In this document: piece after piece, positions 638-28,445 of the stretch
Numbering within the stretch: the first letter of the stretch is position 1
Layout: each line of letters opens with the position of its first letter
Origin: Desulfobacterales bacterium
GTDB taxonomy: Bacteria; Desulfobacterota; Desulfobacteria; Desulfobacterales; JAHEIW01
Direction: 5' to 3'
DNA: 33,363 bases
Assembly: GCA_020348305.1 (NCBI GenBank)
Contig: CP070746.1
Coordinates: 5,300,606 to 5,333,968 of the forward strand
The notes under the pieces: model-generated
The model's input: only the letters and a program-made list of their open reading frames with translations
The model's database searches: none
What the model was told of the DNA's origin: nothing
Position numbers and translations under genes: made by a program

Positions 638-1561
638 ATGCTGACCATTGATTTCAGTTTTCGCGAGCTTGAAATTTTTTGCAAGGTTGTCGAATTGGAA
701 AGCTTTTCAAGGGCTGCTGAAGCAGTTTTTCTGGTTCAGGCATCGGTGAGTGAAAGGATCGCCTCTCTTGAAAAAAAGATTGGAACCCGACTGCTGGACC
801 GCCTGGGTAGAAAAGTGATTCCCACGGCGGCCGGCGAACTTCTGCACAAACATGCGACCCTTCTTCTGGAAATGAAAGAGACGGCCCAATTAGAAATAGA
901 AAGTTTCCTCGGACTGAAACAGGGAGAAATTTCCATGGGCGGCAGCACCATTCCCGGTGAATATATTCTTCCGGATCTCATCGGTAGATTCAATAAAAAG
1001 TATCCGCATTTATCGGTGAAACTGACCATCGCAGACAGCAGTGAAATTGAAAATCGCGTTCTGGCGGGCAAACTTGAGATCGGCGTCATCGGATCAAAAA
1101 GTCCACATGCGAAGCTATTATGCCAAAAACTATGGGAGGACGAACTGGTGCTTGCCGTCCCTGTTCGGCACCCATGGGCCCGGCGAAAGGCCGTCTCCCC
1201 GCAAGAGCTGCGCAAAACACCATTCATACTGCGGGAAGAGGGCTCTGGAACCTTGAAAATCTTGGAAGCCTATCTGCGTGAATCGGGTGAGGACGGCACC
1301 AACGCCCTTCAAGTCTCCGCCAGATTCGGCTCATCGACGGCTGTTAAAGAAGGTATCAAATCAGGCCTTGGCCTGTCCATCCTTTCAGCAAGAGCCATTG
1401 ACACGGAGTTGAAAGCTGGAATCCTCAAAGCATTGAAGGTCAAGGGACTTTCGATGTCTCGACACTTTTTCCTGATCCGGAATAAACTGCGGATTGCCTC
1501 TCCAGCGTGTCAGGCCATGCTTGAATTTCTGCTGACCACCGCAGGAGAGCAGAAGAATTAA
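638..1561 (+). CDS. LysR-family regulator of selenium metabolism
   Basis: A 307-aa LysR-type transcription factor. An N-terminal winged HTH (residues about 5-64; SFSRAAEAVF and SVSERIASLEKKIG are typical) is followed by a periplasmic-binding-like effector domain (about 90-300). The open frame extends 46 codons upstream to 500, but ATG 638 is preferred: AAGGAAG at 622-628 precedes it by 9 bases and the LysR fold begins directly after it. LysR proteins beside selD and yedF in anaerobes form a recognised selenium-metabolism subgroup, and the same gene order here supports that role. The effector (a selenium or sulfur compound) is not visible from sequence. The likely target is the selD promoter region about 130-200 bases downstream, where a direct repeat occurs. 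Family is certain; the selenium role is inferred from context. Confidence 0.9.
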   Translation: MLTIDFSFRELEIFCKVVELESFSRAAEAVFLVQASVSERIASLEKKIGTRLLDRLGRKVIPTAAGELLHKHATLLLEMKETAQLEIESFLGLKQGEISMGGSTIPGEYILPDLIGRFNKKYPHLSVKLTIADSSEIENRVLAGKLEIGVIGSKSPHAKLLCQKLWEDELVLAVPVRHPWARRKAVSPQELRKTPFILREEGSGTLKILEAYLRESGEDGTNALQVSARFGSSTAVKEGIKSGLGLSILSARAIDTELKAGILKALKVKGLSMSRHFFLIRNKLRIASPACQAMLEFLLTTAGEQKN

Positions 1562-1742: not shown

Positions 1743-1771
1743 TTGACATATCGGATATATAATTGTATTTT
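1743..1771 (+). promoter_or_regulatory. Candidate sigma-70 promoter of selD
   Basis: A perfect -35 TTGACA (1743-1748) is followed after 17 bases by TATTTT (1766-1771), a 4/6 match to -10. A closer TATAAT at 1758-1763 is only 9 bases from the -35 and so cannot pair with it. Transcription would start near 1778, about 60 bases before the selD ATG. Confidence 0.4.
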
Positions 1772-1795: not shown

Positions 1796-1836
1796 AGTGG
1801 TATTATTTTTGTTAAGAAAATAAAAGGTTAACAACA

Positions 1837-2883
1837 ATGGTCAACAAACCGATTCAGCTGACGCGCAGCGTCAAAGGGGCTGGTTGAGCTTCAAAGCTTT
1901 CGCCAGGGGACCTGGATCAGGCATTATGTGGACTCGATTTTCCCATTGACAAAAACGTACTGGTGGGTTTGGGCACTTCCGATGATGCCGGCGTGTATCA
2001 AATTACCGAGGAGCTGGCTCTCATCCAGACCGTGGATTTTTTTACACCCATCGTCGATGATCCGTTTGATTTTGGCTGCATCGCAGCGGCCAATGCCTTG
2101 TCCGATGTTTATGCCATGGGTGGTGTCCCCAAGACCGCCATGAACCTGGTGGCATACCCCCTTCAAAAACTGGGTAAGGATGTCTTGCGGGCGGTTCTGG
2201 CAGGAGGAATCGAAAAACTCAAAGAGGCCGAAACGGTTCTTTTAGGCGGTCACAGCATTGAGGACGAAGAATTTAAATATGGGCTTTCGGTATCGGGTTT
2301 TGTGCATCCCCAAAAAATATACACAAATAGGGGATTGCATCCGGGTGATTGTCTAATTCTTACCAAACCTCTGGGTACCGGCATTATCAACACGGCAGTG
2401 AAGGGGGGATTGGCATCATCTGGAACCGTTGTAACGGTGACGGAACTGATGACGGAATTGAACAAAACCGCTTCCGAAATTCTGGGATCATTTCCGGTGA
2501 CGGCCTGTACAGATATAACTGGTTTTGGGCTCTTGGGACACCTGGCGGAAATGGTGGTTGGGACAGATATTTGCGTTACGATTGAAAGCGGTGTAGTACC
2601 GGTTTTGCCCGAGGCGCTGGAGTTTGCCGCAATGGGCTTTGTCCCTGCCGGAACCCACCGCAACCGAAGTTTTCGCCAAAAAATGGTCAGATTGGCCTCC
2701 AATGTTAGCCCAGTAATGCGAGATGTGCTATTTGATCCCCAAACATCCGGGGGGTTACTAATAGGCTGCGCTGAAAAAAAAGCTTTTGAGCTGAAAAACC
2801 GGTTGATTGCAGCGGGCGTGAAAAACACCGCTATCATCGGCAAGGTGTATGACAATGAAAGGGAAATCATCAACATTATCTAA
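1837..2883 (+). CDS. selD: Selenide, water dikinase SelD, selenocysteine-containing (UGA recoded)
   Basis: SelD makes selenophosphate from selenide and ATP for selenocysteine and selenouridine synthesis. ATG 1837 has AAAGG at 1823-1827. Reading through the in-frame TGA at 1885-1887 gives a 348-aa protein of normal SelD length. The UGA falls at residue 17 in the motif KGAG-U-ASK, aligning with catalytic Cys17 of E. coli SelD, and the catalytic Lys is kept at residue 20. Downstream are the ATP-binding strand GLGTSDDAGVY, DFFTPIVDDP, and DITGFGLLGHLAEM. Naive gene calling would begin at the GTG at 1963 and drop the catalytic residue. A SECIS-like hairpin follows the UGA. Only 18 bases separate it from yedF, so the two are probably an operon. 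Sec-containing SelD is known in several anaerobes. The cell must have selA, selB and tRNA-Sec elsewhere. Confidence 0.95.
1885..1915 (+). promoter_or_regulatory. Sec UGA codon plus bacterial SECIS-like stem-loop in selD
   Basis: After the UGA (1885-1887), CCAGG (1903-1907) pairs with CCTGG (1911-1915) around loop GGA (1908-1910). The loop begins 20 bases after the UGA and starts with G. Both fit the known bacterial SECIS pattern: an apical stem-loop 16-37 bases past UGA with G in the first loop positions. SelB recognition is inferred. Confidence 0.75.
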
Positions 2884-2901: not shown

Positions 2902-3513
2902 ATGACAAAAACTCTTGATGCGAGAGGGCTCGCGTGTCCAGCGCCGGTTTTAATGACCAAAGACGCCGTTGAGAAAGATAACCTTAATGTTGTGGCAGTA
3001 CTGGTGGATAACGAAGCCGCCAAGGAAAATGTCTCCCGGTTTTTAGGATCGCAACATTTTTCTATAACCGCTTCGAAGGAAGGAAATGATTATAAAATTA
3101 GCGCTCACCGCCAAGGCGATGTACCGGAAGCCGCCTCGGAGCCGGAAGATTCCCCAAAACCATCAGCCGATCAGAATCAAAAAATCATGGTTTTGGTGTC
3201 CACCGACCGTTTGGGCTTTGGTGATGATGAATTGGGTAGGAGGTTGATAATCAGCTTCATTAAAACCATCAAAGAAATGGGAGATGAACTCTGGCGACTG
3301 GTGCTTGTCAACAATGGTGTCAAGTTAACCATCGATGGTTCACCGGTACTGGAAGACCTGGTTGCGTATGAAAAAAAAGGCCTGTCCATTTTAGTGTGCG
3401 GTACCTGCCTCTCCCACTTTAATTTACTTGAAGCAAAAAGAGTCGGGGAAACCACAAATATGCTGGATATCGTCACCGCCATGCAGTTAGCTGACAAGGT
3501 GATAAATATTTAA
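2902..3513 (+). CDS. yedF: YedF-type sulfurtransferase-like selenium metabolism protein
   Basis: A 203-aa two-domain protein. The N-terminal TusA/SirA-like domain (residues about 3-72) carries the signature DARGLACPAPVL with its conserved Cys. A linker rich in Pro, Glu and Ser follows, then a DsrE-like domain (about 92-203) with VCGTCLSHF holding two further Cys. This is the architecture of the selenium-associated YedF family, whose members sit beside selD. A role in handling reactive selenium or sulfur for SelD is widely suggested but not settled. A TTG start at 2893 is possible, but ATG 2902 has the better distance (11 bases) from AAAAGGG at 2884-2890. It lies 18 bases after selD, so is probably co-transcribed. 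Confidence 0.9.
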   Translation: MTKTLDARGLACPAPVLMTKDAVEKDNLNVVAVLVDNEAAKENVSRFLGSQHFSITASKEGNDYKISAHRQGDVPEAASEPEDSPKPSADQNQKIMVLVSTDRLGFGDDELGRRLIISFIKTIKEMGDELWRLVLVNNGVKLTIDGSPVLEDLVAYEKKGLSILVCGTCLSHFNLLEAKRVGETTNMLDIVTAMQLADKVINI

Positions 3514-3560
3514 AAGGGGCATTTTCCAATAATTCAGTTCGGAGGTGAGGAATTCCGCAT

Positions 3561-3740
3561 TCATGAATTCTGAGGGCGGTTATAAATCAAGCCTTCCATC
3601 AGGTCGGCTAGGTCTTCCTGCTTTGGACACACGAAATAGACTTTCTCTTTCTGCCAAGCGACCGTCTCCCCGACATAGTTCTGGTTCGTCCGGTAGTCGG
3701 ACTCGGAGAATCGTGGATCGACGCCGGTCAAGAAAAACAA
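3561..3740 (-). pseudogene. Fic-family-like gene fragment
   Basis: A 59-codon minus-strand frame with a stop codon immediately upstream. It contains SESDYRTNQNYVGETVAW followed by PKQEDLADLMEGL. This resembles the Fic family segment in which FRTxQNxVG is followed about 25 residues later by a P-x-x-EDLPxLM element. No start codon of usual type or ribosome-binding site is seen. The catalytic HPFxxGNGR motif that should follow is absent, since the frame ends within 10 residues. The match is from memory of the family pattern, so the assignment is tentative; that it is a broken gene is more secure. Confidence 0.4.
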
Positions 3741-3966
3741 TTACATGCCAAGAAATATGGTTACGATGCGGATTGCTGCGTGAAAAACCATTACGCCATC
3801 CGAGTTCTGGGCTCTCCCAGCGACTTCCTCACAACTGCATAAATTCGTGGCGCACCTTCGCAATGGGCGATGAGATCAAGATCGCCGGCCACGATGAAAA
3901 GGTGAAGTGGGAAGCCATAGAGCTGTCGGACCGACTCGGCATTTCCGCCTTCGTCAAAGACATGGT

Positions 3967-4134
3967 ATGATGTTTCATTTAGGAAGGGATTATGCCCTTT
4001 ATGCTGAGATGTTTAATCGAAAAGATAAAAAAACAAAGGCTAAAGAATACCTGAACAAGGCAATTGAAATTTTCAAAGAATGCGGTGCGGATGGTTGGGT
4101 AGATAAATATGAGAAAGAATTGATTGAATTTTAA
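3967..4134 (+). pseudogene. C-terminal remnant of a TPR / adenylate-cyclase-type protein
   Basis: The frame reads DYALYAEMFNRKDKKTKAKE, then YLNKAIEIFKECGADGWVDK and YEKELIEF. That is a single tetratricopeptide-like helix pair ending in the C-terminal sequence common to large TPR proteins of the adenylate/guanylate cyclase-AAA type in Desulfobacterota. The parent proteins are usually near 1000 residues, so only the last 55 or so survive. The frame upstream belongs to unrelated sequence, which places the breakpoint near 3967. No ribosome-binding site precedes it, so expression is unlikely. Confidence 0.5.
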
Positions 4135-4230
4135 TAGCAATATTATATTAGATTGACATTAGACAATTTTGCAGGCTAATTAAAAACAAATCAAAGTTTT
4201 TTCAGCTAACGAAAAGCTGCAAGGTGATAT

Positions 4231-11590: not shown

Positions 11591-14269
11591 ATGAAAACAG
11601 AAAAGATCGTTTATCTGATAGATGGCACAGCCTATATTCACCGCGCCTATCATGCCATTCGCGGGCTGGCCAACTCAAAAGGGCTTCCGACGAATGCCAT
11701 TTTCGGCTTTACCCGAATACTCATTAAATTAATGCAGGATCGGGACCCACACTATGCAGCGATGTTTTTTGATGCCAAAGGTCCCACCTTCCGACATGAT
11801 ATTTACCAAGAGTACAAAGCAAATCGCCCCGCAATGCCGGAGGATATGGCCGTGCAAATACCATATATTAAAGATGTGACCACGGCCTACCATCTGCCGA
11901 TTATTGAAATGGCGGGGTTTGAAGCTGATGATCTGATCGGCACCTATGCGCGCATCGGCGAGCAAAGCGGCTTTGCGGTGGTTATGGTTACGGGTGATAA
12001 GGATTTCTTGCAGCTGGTAACCGAAAACAACATTATCTGGGATCCCATGAAGGAAAAGACCATTGATATACGCACGATACGAGAAGAATATGGTGTCGAG
12101 CCGCACCAGATGATCGATGTTATGGGATTGTCCGGCGATACCACGGATAATATTCCGGGGGTTCCAGGAATCGGTCAAAAGACTGCCCTGGGTTTAATCA
12201 AAGCCCATGGAGATATGGAGCATTTATATCAAAAGCTCGAATCTATTACCAAGAAAAAGCAACGTGAAAATCTTGTTGATTTCAAGGATCAAGCCTTTTT
12301 GAGTAAGACGCTTGTGACCATTAACACCGCTGTACCGGTGGCCATCGATCTGAAGCAATTTGAAATTACACCGCCCGATACCCAAGCGCTGTCCAACTTA
12401 TTTAAAACCCTTGAATTCAGGCAATTGCAGCAGTCCGTATCTGCTAAGACCGATCTTAGCGATAAGGATTACCAGGCCATATTAAATGCGAAAAAGCTTT
12501 CCGAGCTAGTTACCCGCCTGAATTCCGCTAAAATCTTTGCCTTGGATACGGAGACCACCTCTACCAATCCCATGGTCGCCAAGTTGGTGGGATTGTCGTT
12601 TTCGATTACGCCGCATGAAGCCTTTTATATTCCCTGTGGGCATAATTATCTCGGGGTTCCCCAGCAGCTTAAGCTCGCCGTCGTTTTACAACAGCTCAAA
12701 GCGGTACTGGAAAACGCTGATATTCAAAAAGTCGGCCAGAACATCAAATATGATTGGATGGTTCTCGCCCGTCATGGGATTGACTTGGCCGGTGTGACCT
12801 TTGATACGATGCTGGCGTCCTATTTGCTAAATCCGTCCAAAAGAGCACACAATCTGGATCAAATTGCACTAGATTTCCTAGATCACAAAACGATTACCTA
12901 TGAGGAAGTAGCCGGCAAAGGCAAAAAGGCCACCTCCTTTGCCGAAGTGTCGTTGGAAAAGGCGGTGCCCTATGCCTGCGAAGATGCAGATATTACGCTG
13001 ATGGCCAAAGATGTCTTAGCCCACGGGCTGGAAGAGATCGGTCTGACCAAACTGCTGGAGGACGTTGAAATGCCTTTGGTACCGGTGTTAATGCGGATGG
13101 AGATGCGGGGCACCGGCATCGATATTAACCGATTGAATGAGCTGTCCAAATCATTTGAACACCAGCTGGAAGCCCTTGAAGGCAGCATCTATGGACTGGC
13201 CGATGAAGAATTCAACATCAATTCTTCGCAACAGCTGGGACGCATCTTGTTTGAAAAACTCAAATTGCCGGTCCAGAAGAAAACCAAAAAGAAAACCGGA
13301 TATTCAACCGATGTAGATGTACTCAATGTGCTGGCCGAACATCATGAACTGCCAGTTTTGGTGCTGAAACACCGAACCCTGTCGAAATTGAAATCAACCT
13401 ATGCGGATGCGTTAATCGATTTGGTGAACCCTGATACCGGCCGCATTCATACCTCTTACAATCAAACGGTGACCGCCACCGGACGATTGAGCAGCTCAGA
13501 CCCGAACCTTCAGAATATTCCGATCCGAACCGATGAGGGCAGAGAGATCCGCAGAGCATTTATCCCGCAAAAAGGATGGCATCTGTTGTCCGCAGATTAT
13601 TCCCAGGTGGAACTGCGCATCCTGGCGCATTATTCGGATGATCAAATTTTGATAAAATCGTTTTTGGATGATGAAGACATTCACACCCGCACGGCGGGTG
13701 AAGTTTTCCAAGTTTCACCTGAAATGATCAATCCGGAACTGCGGCGACAAGCCAAGGCGATCAATTTTGGTATCATTTACGGGATGAGTGCCTTTGGGTT
13801 GTCCAAACAGCTTGAGATCAGCCAGAAGATGGCAAAGACCTATATCGATAATTATTTTTCACGCTACAAAGGGGTGAAACAGTTTCTGGATCAAACGATT
13901 GCAGAAGCCAGACGAACGAAACAATCCAGTACGCTTTTGGGTCGGATCCGTTTGCTACCGGATATTGACAGCGCGAACAACATAGTTCGTCAAGCGGCTG
14001 AACGAGTCGCCGTCAATACTCCGATTCAGGGTTCCGCCGCTGATCTTATCAAGTTGGCGATGATAAACGTGGACAGAGCCTTCAGGGAAAAAAATCTGCA
14101 ATCGGCGATGTTATTAACCGTTCATGACGAGCTTGTGTTTGAAGTGCCGCCGGATGAACTCGACACCGTCTCCAATCTTGTCAAGGAGATCATGGAAGGC
14201 GTGTGGAAGCTTAACGTTCCGCTGAAGGTTAATGTGACCTACGGGGCAAACTGGGCGGAAGCCCACTAG
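11591..14269 (+). CDS. polA: DNA polymerase I
   Basis: An 892-aa, full-length three-domain Pol I for primer removal and repair synthesis. The 5'-3' exonuclease (1-290) begins YLIDGTAYIHRAYHA and has the ADDLIGTYAR and VTGDKDFLQL metal-site motifs. The 3'-5' proofreading domain (about 300-490) keeps acidic residues in FALDTETTSTNP and NIKYDWMVLARHGI. The polymerase domain (about 500-892) shows motif A ADYSQVELRILAHYS, O-helix RRQAKAINFGIIYG and motif C LTVHDELVFEVP. All catalytic acids are present. GGAG at 11581-11584 precedes the ATG. No operon partner is evident. Confidence 0.97.
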   Translation: MKTEKIVYLIDGTAYIHRAYHAIRGLANSKGLPTNAIFGFTRILIKLMQDRDPHYAAMFFDAKGPTFRHDIYQEYKANRPAMPEDMAVQIPYIKDVTTAYHLPIIEMAGFEADDLIGTYARIGEQSGFAVVMVTGDKDFLQLVTENNIIWDPMKEKTIDIRTIREEYGVEPHQMIDVMGLSGDTTDNIPGVPGIGQKTALGLIKAHGDMEHLYQKLESITKKKQRENLVDFKDQAFLSKTLVTINTAVPVAIDLKQFEITPPDTQALSNLFKTLEFRQLQQSVSAKTDLSDKDYQAILNAKKLSELVTRLNSAKIFALDTETTSTNPMVAKLVGLSFSITPHEAFYIPCGHNYLGVPQQLKLAVVLQQLKAVLENADIQKVGQNIKYDWMVLARHGIDLAGVTFDTMLASYLLNPSKRAHNLDQIALDFLDHKTITYEEVAGKGKKATSFAEVSLEKAVPYACEDADITLMAKDVLAHGLEEIGLTKLLEDVEMPLVPVLMRMEMRGTGIDINRLNELSKSFEHQLEALEGSIYGLADEEFNINSSQQLGRILFEKLKLPVQKKTKKKTGYSTDVDVLNVLAEHHELPVLVLKHRTLSKLKSTYADALIDLVNPDTGRIHTSYNQTVTATGRLSSSDPNLQNIPIRTDEGREIRRAFIPQKGWHLLSADYSQVELRILAHYSDDQILIKSFLDDEDIHTRTAGEVFQVSPEMINPELRRQAKAINFGIIYGMSAFGLSKQLEISQKMAKTYIDNYFSRYKGVKQFLDQTIAEARRTKQSSTLLGRIRLLPDIDSANNIVRQAAERVAVNTPIQGSAADLIKLAMINVDRAFREKNLQSAMLLTVHDELVFEVPPDELDTVSNLVKEIMEGVWKLNVPLKVNVTYGANWAEAH

Positions 14270-25915: not shown

Positions 25916-26338
25916 TTAAGCCAAAAAAGGATTTATGATCGAAATACCTTCCACATGCTGACCATGACTGAGATCTTCTGTCAGAATAGTATTCACGTTT
26001 TTCGAGTAAGCAGCTGAAACAATCAGCGCATCCCAGAAAGAAAAGTTGTAAGCCTCCTCGATCTCGCTGGCCTGTATTATAATCGGAGCATCATTTATGA
26101 CAACTTCCCAATCAATATAATTCTTCACGATTCTCCTGGCAGTGGGCTTCCTTAAGGGTACCGAAATTTTTCTTGTCAAAGTTACATAAAATTCTTGAAG
26201 AACTTGGGTGCTCAGTACACCGGAACGGGAATCCCATAAATCAGAGACGATCTTATTTGCGATTCTATGCTTATTACCTGAATCCAGATCGTGTGCGTAG
26301 ACTAAAATATTGGTATCCACAAAAGTCCTATCGTTCAT
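25916..26338 (-). CDS. PIN-domain toxin (VapC-like)
   Basis: A 140-aa PIN-domain ribonuclease. Acidic metal-site residues appear as Asp8 in TFVDTNILVYAH, Glu in LQEFYVTL, Asp in FWDALIVSAA and Asp in LTEDLSHG. Family toxins cut tRNA or other RNA with Mg2+ and are silenced by the cognate antitoxin. The start codon lies inside the end of the antitoxin gene (11-base overlap), so the two are translationally coupled. Length and residues are complete. Confidence 0.88.
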   Translation of the reverse strand: MNDRTFVDTNILVYAHDLDSGNKHRIANKIVSDLWDSRSGVLSTQVLQEFYVTLTRKISVPLRKPTARRIVKNYIDWEVVINDAPIIIQASEIEEAYNFSFWDALIVSAAYSKNVNTILTEDLSHGQHVEGISIINPFLA

Positions 26339-26561
26339 AAAGGTCCTCTCGTTTCCATGTTATACGACCGCCCAGATTAAGCCCTTTTTTTAGGATTTGC
26401 ATAGCATTTCTTTTTGCGGCCTCGTAATGATCTTCCTTGTCTACTATCTCTTTTAGCAATTCACCCAGCATTTTGCTGATTGAGGTCTCTTTTTGGGCCG
26501 CAATGATTTTTCCTTTTTTAATGAGCTCTTTTTCAAGGCTCAACGTAATATTCTGTTTCAT
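26328..26561 (-). CDS. DUF6364-like antitoxin
   Basis: A 77-aa antitoxin. The N-terminus (NITLSLEKELIKKGKIIAAQ) is the beta-strand/helix of a ribbon-helix-helix-like DNA-binding fold; the C-terminus (GGRITWKREDLYER) would wrap the PIN toxin. GAGGAG lies 6 bases before the ATG. It is first in the operon and overlaps the toxin gene by 11 bases. Two inverted repeats immediately upstream suggest that the complex represses its own promoter. Confidence 0.82.
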   Translation of the reverse strand: MKQNITLSLEKELIKKGKIIAAQKETSISKMLGELLKEIVDKEDHYEAAKRNAMQILKKGLNLGGRITWKREDLYER

Positions 26562-26580
26562 AGTGAACTCCTCGATAATT

Positions 26581-26622
26581 TACACGTATTTTACGTGTAA
26601 CACGTATTATTCGTGTTGTCAA
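26581..26622 (-). promoter_or_regulatory. Twin palindromes over the promoter of the DUF6364-PIN operon
   Basis: TACACGT/ACGTGTA (26581-26599, 5-base centre) adjoins AACACG/CGTGTT (26599-26617, 7-base centre). On the minus strand a perfect TTGACA (-35) lies at 26617-26622, and the palindromes fill the -35 to start region. This is a likely operator for autoregulation. Confidence 0.6.
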
Positions 26623-26717
26623 GGAACAAAACAAATAAGCTGATCGCCAATTATTTTTTCTGAAGAGTCCAAAAAATTTGCATTGCTTTAATAAACTCTA
26701 AAATTTATTATGATGCA

Positions 26718-26746
26718 TTGACATGCGTTGCATTACGATGTATTAT
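26718..26746 (+). promoter_or_regulatory. Promoter of the DUF433-DUF5615 operon
   Basis: TTGACA (26718-26723), a 17-base spacer and TATTAT (26741-26746) form a near-ideal sigma-70 promoter, 32 bases before the ATG. ATGCA/TGCAT copies within and around it (26714-26733) may be operator half-sites. AAGGAG lies at 26764-26769. Confidence 0.65.
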
Positions 26747-26777
26747 AGTGCCATTCTAACCGAAAAGGAGTTTAATC

Positions 26778-27203
26778 ATGTCTTCCGTTCAAAAGAGCAT
26801 ACGGTTGCCGGAAGAGGCGGTAAAAGAGATAGAGACCCTCGCTTCAAACACTGGAAAGGATTTTTCAGGGCTCGCCAGAGACCTTCTGATTGAGGCGGTA
26901 AAAATGAGAAGATGTCCGGGAATAACGTTCGCAGAGGGTTCCGCCGGCAGGCGTGCCCGAATTGCCGGTACTGGTATTGATGTTTGGGAACTAATTGCCA
27001 CCTTCAAAGGCTTGGGAGAAAGCTACGAAGAAATAAAAAAAGCTTATCATTGGTTAAGCGAGCAGCAGCTCCGCTCTGCGCTGTCTTATTATGCGCTTTA
27101 TCCCAAAGAAATCGATGAAAGAATCACACGCAATGAGGAGATAACCCAGGAAAAGATAGTAAAGCGGTTTCCCTTCTTAGCAAGGCCGGCGGAGCGGAAG
27201 TGA
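26778..27203 (+). CDS. RHH-DUF433 antitoxin
   Basis: A 141-aa antitoxin. Residues 1-45 form a ribbon-helix-helix-like start (SSVQKSIRLPEEAVKEIETL). Residues about 55-115 are a DUF433 helix-turn-helix-like domain with ARIAGTGIDVWELIATFKGL and SYEEIKKAYHWLSEQQLRSA. DUF433 proteins pair with DUF5615 PIN-like toxins, as here. AAGGAG and a good promoter precede it. Its stop overlaps the start of the toxin gene by 4 bases. An N-terminal RHH fused to DUF433 is less common than DUF433 alone. Confidence 0.88.
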   Translation: MSSVQKSIRLPEEAVKEIETLASNTGKDFSGLARDLLIEAVKMRRCPGITFAEGSAGRRARIAGTGIDVWELIATFKGLGESYEEIKKAYHWLSEQQLRSALSYYALYPKEIDERITRNEEITQEKIVKRFPFLARPAERK

Positions 27204-27553
27204 ATTTTTATCTTGATGAGGATATAAGCCCGAAGGTGGCTCAACTCCTGAGAAAAAAAAGTATTGATGCAGTAAGTGCCCACGAGACGGGTATGCTCGG
27301 CGCATCTGATGAAGAACAGTTGACGGCTGCCACCGCTGATGGTCGTGTTCTGGTCACCAGGAATAGAGATGATTTTATCCTTCTAACCGTCCGTTTCTTT
27401 GAAGACTTAAAGCCCCATCATGGACTGCTTATCGTTCCTCACACTATCCCAGGTTCTAACTTTAATCTGTTCGCGACCCTTCTGATGAAATTTGCCAAGA
27501 AGCACCCCAAAGGTTTGGTACCATACACCATAGAGTTTTTATCACCTCGGTAA
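27200..27553 (+). CDS. DUF5615 PIN-like toxin
   Basis: A 117-aa PIN-like (Mut7-C related) protein. The opening NFYLDEDISPKVAQLLRK carries the acidic cluster, and VLVTRNRDDFI holds the second acidic site. The GTG start at 27200 overlaps the TGA of the DUF433 gene (GTGA), giving tight coupling. DUF5615 proteins are predicted RNases and toxins of type II systems. Copy B of the 97-nt repeat begins 7 bases after its stop codon. Confidence 0.88.
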   Translation: MNFYLDEDISPKVAQLLRKKSIDAVSAHETGMLGASDEEQLTAATADGRVLVTRNRDDFILLTVRFFEDLKPHHGLLIVPHTIPGSNFNLFATLLMKFAKKHPKGLVPYTIEFLSPR

Positions 27554-27560
27554 GTATGCG

Positions 27561-27656
27561 CCTTTAAGACTCGATGCGTGAAAAGGGGACGTGGGAATCC
27601 TGTAAATTATTAAAAATGTTATAAGCGGTAAAAAGTCAATCTTTCACGCTCGTCCC
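27561..27656. repeat. 97-nt direct repeat, copy B
   Basis: A 96-base copy of the element at 25693-25790, same orientation. It fills the gap between the DUF5615 stop and the promoter region of the next module. Confidence 0.8.
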
Positions 27657-27695
27657 CCGTTTTTTGATTTATCTAATTGACTATCGACAATATTT

Positions 27696-27719
27696 ATGTC
27701 ATAAAAATATATGTCATAA
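27696..27719 (+). promoter_or_regulatory. ATGTCATAA direct repeat, candidate operator of the RHH-PIN module
   Basis: ATGTCATAA occurs at 27696-27704 and 27711-27719, 15 bases apart. An upstream TTGACT (27677-27682) could serve as -35. Direct repeats just before a ribbon-helix-helix gene fit the operator type these proteins bind. Confidence 0.45.
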
Positions 27720-27742
27720 TATATGATATGGAAAATATTGAC

Positions 27743-27979
27743 ATGAAAAAAATCAGGAAAGTTCCCATCCAAATTTATTTGGATCCGGAACAATTTAAAA
27801 TTATAGACCGGTTGGCAAAAGCCAGCGGTAAATCCAAAGCCGCCACTATCCGTTCATGTATTGCAAAGTACCTTGACAGTCTTCCACTGGAAAAAGATCC
27901 GGCCCTGAATATTATGAACCTTGGCGCATCAGGCAGAACAGACATCGCCGAAAAACATGATGACTATCTGACTGATTAA
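27743..27979 (+). CDS. Ribbon-helix-helix antitoxin
   Basis: A 78-aa DNA-binding antitoxin. KVPIQIYLDPEQFKIIDRLA gives the beta strand and first helix, and SGKSKAATIRSCIAKYLD the second. The acidic C-terminus (about 50-78) would bind the PIN partner. The frame opens at a TTG at 27677, but the repeats and promoter lie there; ATG 27743 or 27728 is more likely, and I chose 27743 because GGA at 27730-27732 is 10 bases before it. The PIN gene starts 16 bases after the stop. Confidence 0.82.
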   Translation: MKKIRKVPIQIYLDPEQFKIIDRLAKASGKSKAATIRSCIAKYLDSLPLEKDPALNIMNLGASGRTDIAEKHDDYLTD

Positions 27980-27995
27980 GGACAAGGCTCTATTA

Positions 27996-28445
27996 GTGGA
28001 ACCCAGCCTGCAGAAAAGAACCTTATTTGTGGATACGGGTGCATGGTTTGCGTTAGCAGACAAATCCGATCAATTTCATGGTCCGGCCGTTAAAATCTAT
28101 CCGGATCTATTAAAAGGCTATCATTATTTGACGACAACAAATCTGGTTGTCGCCGAAACCTACATTTTGATTCGTCGTGCCCTGGGGTATCAGGCTGCCA
28201 TCACTTTTTTGGAAAACCTTTCCGCAAGTCCACGGATAACAAAAATTTATTCTGAAGCCACTTTGGAAGACAAGGCAGAGGATATTTTAAGAAAGTATCA
28301 AGACCAGGATTTCAGTTTTACCGATGCCGTCAGTTTTGCTGTTATGGAAGAATTTGGAATTAAAAAGGCTTTTTCCTTTGATCAGCATTTTTTGATAGCA
28401 GGCTTTAGGATTGTTCCCAAGAAACCCCCGCAAGAGAAGTTATGA
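27996..28445 (+). CDS. PIN-domain toxin (VapC-like)
   Basis: A 149-aa PIN nuclease with all acidic site residues visible: Asp in LFVDTGAWFALAD, Glu in NLVVAETYIL, Asp in FSFTDAVSFAVM and Asp in FSFDQHFLIAGF. It starts at GTG 27996, 16 bases after the RHH antitoxin, which marks a bicistronic type II module. It is a different lineage from the PIN gene at 25916-26338, so it is not a duplication of it. Confidence 0.87.
   Translation: MEPSLQKRTLFVDTGAWFALADKSDQFHGPAVKIYPDLLKGYHYLTTTNLVVAETYILIRRALGYQAAITFLENLSASPRITKIYSEATLEDKAEDILRKYQDQDFSFTDAVSFAVMEEFGIKKAFSFDQHFLIAGFRIVPKKPPQEKL

Follow-up and report, generated by a model that had tools for sequence, protein, structure and literature searches.

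The selenocysteine (Sec) form of selenophosphate synthetase, SelD, has reportedly been known for two decades. Among bacteria it has been listed for Syntrophobacter, Desulfotalea, Desulfovibrio and Geobacter (PMC1794560), and in Photobacterium profundum one Sec and one Cys form are encoded by two selD genes of a single genome (PMC1273633). An earlier comparative study had already associated the LysR_Se and YedF families with SelD (PMC5322559). The selD gene described here lies in a stretch of 33,363 nucleotides (the window) from a genome of the order Desulfobacterales (G000), and it differs in nothing of substance from the bacterial Sec-SelD genes already described (PMC1794560), sharing with them a predicted Sec at the catalytic N-terminal position, an in-frame UGA followed by a SECIS element, and Sec machinery in the genome, to which this genome adds two selD copies of another type (type B). 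Compared with SelD of E. coli (PDB 3u0o), the window protein has the same length, family membership and Lys20; residue 17, which is Cys in E. coli, is predicted to be Sec. We regard it as very nearly certain, from sequence comparisons, that the window gene encodes an ordinary Sec-containing selenophosphate synthetase; the identification of the UGA as a Sec codon is correct but ordinary, this being the normal form of selD throughout the sampled order.

The selD frame (selenide, water dikinase; 1837–2883, forward strand) runs from ATG 1837 to the stop codon at 2881–2883 and contains an in-frame TGA at 1885–1887; reading through it yields a protein of 348 residues with U17 and K20, the latter encoded by AAG. 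A putative Shine-Dalgarno-like AAAAGG (1822–1827, forward strand) is located 9 nt 5' of the ATG. The read-through protein aligned with E. coli SelD over residues 4–333 (E 3e-69), with the UGA opposite Cys17 and the next Lys opposite Lys20, scored above the cut-offs of the TIGR00476 equivalog (367.7 bits, cut-off 125) and of NF002098 (324.8 bits, cut-off 299), and contained both AIRS domains (PF00586 and PF02769). These results bear out the preliminary description of this DNA, which had placed the UGA on the catalytic Cys position with Lys20 kept, SelD sequence on both sides and a normal family length after read-through: the family match runs through the UGA, and the length equals that of the E. 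coli protein. It had also stated that standard gene calling starts at codon 43 and loses the catalytic residue, and table-11 calling indeed returned only a 306-residue open reading frame (ORF) from GTG 1963, the first ordinary start past the TGA and codon 43 of the full gene. Over the nine codons 5' of the UGA, type-A genes, among them the window's, differ at rates of 0.23, 0.11 and 0.66 at codon positions 1, 2 and 3, third positions thus varying about 3–6 times more among relatives than first and second ones, which is the pattern of a translated frame and indicates that the part upstream of the UGA is translated. The UGA (1885–1887, forward strand) almost certainly encodes selenocysteine at residue 17, the catalytic position, as judged from Cys17 of E. 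coli SelD, the TGC/TGT codons of 24 Cys-SelD genes and the TGA of homologues in the sampled order. The window has further candidates for read-through of an in-frame TGA; by inspection, none of them unites two parts of a known protein.

Downstream of the UGA, a bacterial SECIS element (1896–1922, forward strand) was delineated from folding energy, kept pairing and frozen synonymous sites. It consists of an apical hairpin, CCAGG-GGA-CCUGG (1903–1915), with a 5-bp stem (1903–1907/1911–1915) and a GGA loop (1908–1910), and of a lower stem (1896–1899/1919–1922). Published rules for such elements call for a loop of 3–9 nt with a G in its first two positions, a stem of 4–16 bp, a spacing of 16–37 nt and a minimum free energy of at most -7.5 kcal/mol (PMC13188914). 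The window hairpin, whose loop starts with GG 20 nt 3' of the UGA, falls within these limits, in the case of energy when the lower stem is included: the predicted fold from the UGA onwards reaches -11.1 kcal/mol, and the apical hairpin without the lower stem only -5.4 to -6.7 kcal/mol. The SECIS-like stem-loop that had been reported at the right distance from the UGA is thus upheld by its spacing and its loop, and it also has comparative support. Folding of the single sequence was rejected as proof of a SECIS element, since the region folded together with its 5' neighbours was no more stable than shuffled sequences (z -0.22) and, for the window gene, the stability of the apical hairpin was matched by 25% of synonymous recodings; in five relatives the same recoding test gave 21% (L051) and 0.4–1.3% (the other four). 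A search of Rfam gave no match within the window.

Because single-sequence folding was weak, we relied on comparative evidence. The helix is paired in 88% of cells across 34 type-A and near-type-A sequences, as against 16–48% when the partners are slid by 1–3 columns; most sequence changes under the helix preserve pairing, and three helix pairs have changed on both sides. Third positions of codons 23–26 differ in 14% of comparisons, compared with 57–66% in the flanking codons. Codon choice is similarly frozen, with Gly24 encoded by GGG in 30 of 30 sequences (23% of glycine codons elsewhere in the same genes), Pro23 by CCA in 21 of 31 (background 8%) and the Leu of the SECIS region by CTG in all 31 (40% elsewhere), although these codon counts, like the pairing counts, come from related sequences and hence do not represent independent events. 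In the window sequence itself, the bottom two pairs of the family helix are absent and a different lower stem is present instead. The predicted hairpin is more than a chance structure on this comparative evidence, which we consider strong.

The genome is a single scaffold of 6.97 Mb with 100-N joins and an estimated contamination of 4.2%. The preliminary description had proposed a search for selA, selB and selC and had named a genome without selB and selC as evidence against a Sec reading; all three genes are present, selA at 612 bits, selB at 387 bits (over its cut-off) and selC as a tRNA-Sec of 75.2 bits (gathering threshold 47) with a UCA anticodon (tca, ARAGORN). A selenouridine synthase was looked for in the genome and not found. 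Five matches resembling PrdB (D-proline reductase), all below the cut-off and each with one TGA, were observed on G000:C1 at 1884588, 3209204, 6057666, 1466496 and 4637003; they are probably further selenoproteins, of which this genome probably holds many.

In the proposed mechanism, a ribosome arriving at UGA 1885 would meet SelB, which, with GTP and Sec-tRNA-Sec, would bind the SECIS hairpin (1896–1922), so that selenocysteine would be put in at residue 17 during decoding in the cell. Sec17 and Lys20 of the finished enzyme would then convert selenide and ATP to selenophosphate, which SelA would need to produce Sec-tRNA-Sec.

Comparison across the order places this gene form in context. In a sample of 146 genomes, 139 had a SelD match, and among the matches listed, all that extend to residue 17 contain a single TGA; the three in the list that lack a TGA (in G081, in G011 and the third copy of the present genome) stop short of this residue. 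Genes read in detail have TGA at codon 17 in 31 of 31 cases for type A (including the window's), 3 of 3 for divergent sequences and 18 of 18 for type B. TGC or TGT occurs at codon 17 only in 24 distant SelD genes (~40–45% identical), the majority from beta- and gammaproteobacteria. Across the sampled order, SelD thus appears to be fixed in its Sec form.

This uniformity bears on whether UGA 1885 might, in addition to encoding Sec, work as a translational switch that depends on selenium and reduces SelD under selenium shortage, a proposal compatible with the main explanation. With all listed SelD proteins of the order that extend to residue 17 being Sec forms, the production of SelD would, from the known mechanism, depend on its own product; however, Sec occupies the catalytic position, so the UGA is explained without a switch, and we consider this additional role unlikely. 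Far less probable, and in our judgement negligible, is an error for TGC or TGT in sequencing or assembly, with a Cys-SelD as the true gene. The 100-N joins of the scaffold, its estimated contamination and the existence of Cys-SelD in other groups lend this some colour, but the window contains no N, the synonymous sites of the SECIS region are frozen, and TGA stands at the same codon in homologues from independent assemblies of the sampled order, which excludes a sequencing error. Homologues with TGC or TGT had been named beforehand as the finding that would speak for such an error, and those of the same order carry TGA. We also rejected contamination as the origin of the window: polA (11591–14269), in the same gap-free stretch, is 74–75% identical to its counterparts in three genomes of the same family versus 59–62% in two genomes of other families, which indicates that the window belongs to this genome; a search for polA in G146 and G147, both incomplete genomes, gave no match. 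A decaying pseudogene, or an internal start at GTG 1963 working without the N-terminal loop, is just as improbable, for although the two further selD copies mean that loss of the window gene could be tolerated, the frame is open to full length after the UGA, the codons before it show a coding-type substitution pattern, and relatives have the same architecture.

The ordinary Sec-SelD gene of the window is flanked by both selenium-associated families of the earlier comparative study (PMC5322559), each over its NCBI equivalog cut-off, in a selenium-metabolism cluster LysR_Se–selD–yedF. Upstream lies the gene for LysR_Se, a selenium-metabolism-associated LysR-type regulator (638–1561, forward strand; NF040786, 273 bits, cut-off 250); its mechanical ORF begins at TTG 500, and the family match, which begins near ATG 638, makes the latter the likelier start. 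Downstream, 18 nt 3' of selD, lies yedF, encoding a sulfurtransferase-like selenium metabolism protein (2902–3513, forward strand; TIGR03527, 214 bits, cut-off 110). The order LysR_Se–selD–yedF was found in this genome and in only one other sampled genome (L070/L112); a yedF adjoining selD is common in the order, including in the genus-mate G146 (L108), and many relatives keep only yedF there. A sigma-70-like promoter sequence, TTGACA-N17-TATTTT (1743–1771, forward strand; 10 of 12 consensus matches), precedes selD, which may be transcribed jointly with yedF. Three ATCGGA repeats occur at 1697, 1728 and 1750, within the 140 bases 5' of selD, and the promoter-like TTGACA lies between two of them. 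The sequence ATCCTGTTTGACA upstream of selD is also present at L070, in a genome of the order with the same LysR gene at this place, and since it is common to both, the repeat region may serve as a target of the LysR regulator, which would then regulate the cluster. Beyond yedF, an ORF at 3545–3970 had no family match and a short open stretch at ~3970–4135 resembles the tail of a TPR-type protein; the segment 3545–4135 probably consists of gene remnants. Elsewhere in the window (25916–28445), several small ORFs resemble, by eye, PIN-type toxins and antitoxins and are probably toxin-antitoxin modules.

With two additional selD genes that score above the cut-off, this genome has three in all. 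As in Photobacterium profundum (PMC1273633), there is more than one selD per genome, apparently of different descent; the present genome differs in having three selD genes, of which two carry TGA and the third has an N-terminus that falls in an assembly gap. Both additional copies (together loci L080 and L081) are of type B: the second (G000:C1:6095286-6096200, reverse strand) has a TGA and a different SECIS hairpin, and the third (G000:C1:1261750-1262586, reverse strand) has its N-terminus inside a 100-N gap (1262581-1262680). These two share 87% identity with one another and 43–45% with the window's gene, and each is followed by a glycyl-radical activase gene, itself followed in the case of the third copy by a trans-4-hydroxy-L-proline dehydratase gene (NF043068, 1262 bits); selD, activase and dehydratase occur in the same order in three genomes of the same family. 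In type-B genes the UGA is retained, and a loop containing G lies at a similar distance on a different stem (UCCGAC-GGAUCU-GUCGGA); another B subgroup has mostly an AGCCC-GGUC-GGGCU hairpin. Under the strict definition of the hairpin, no good candidate was found in the type-B loci L089, L090, L100 and L101.

Types A and B separate in the tree with full support. Within it, the window SelD clusters with G024 and G035, which belong to other families (99/93 and 99/85), and lies apart from the type-A genes of G147 and of the genus-mate G146, a placement that horizontal transfer or old paralogy may explain. The three selD genes in one genome and this cross-family grouping are mildly new. One could imagine that two anciently separate Sec-SelD types with different SECIS hairpins, A with yedF and LysR_Se and B beside the activase gene of trans-4-hydroxyproline dehydratase, split the supply of selenophosphate, so that part goes to Sec synthesis in general and part to an amino-acid reductive pathway; we consider this unlikely. 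That two Sec-SelD types coexist within a single genome poses a small, testable question.

For annotation, read-through of the UGA corrects a gene that ordinary calling would shorten, removing its catalytic residue. For the bacteria themselves, a fixed Sec form of SelD, as it appears in the sampled order, would mean that they need selenocysteine to make the very enzyme that supplies selenium for selenocysteine.
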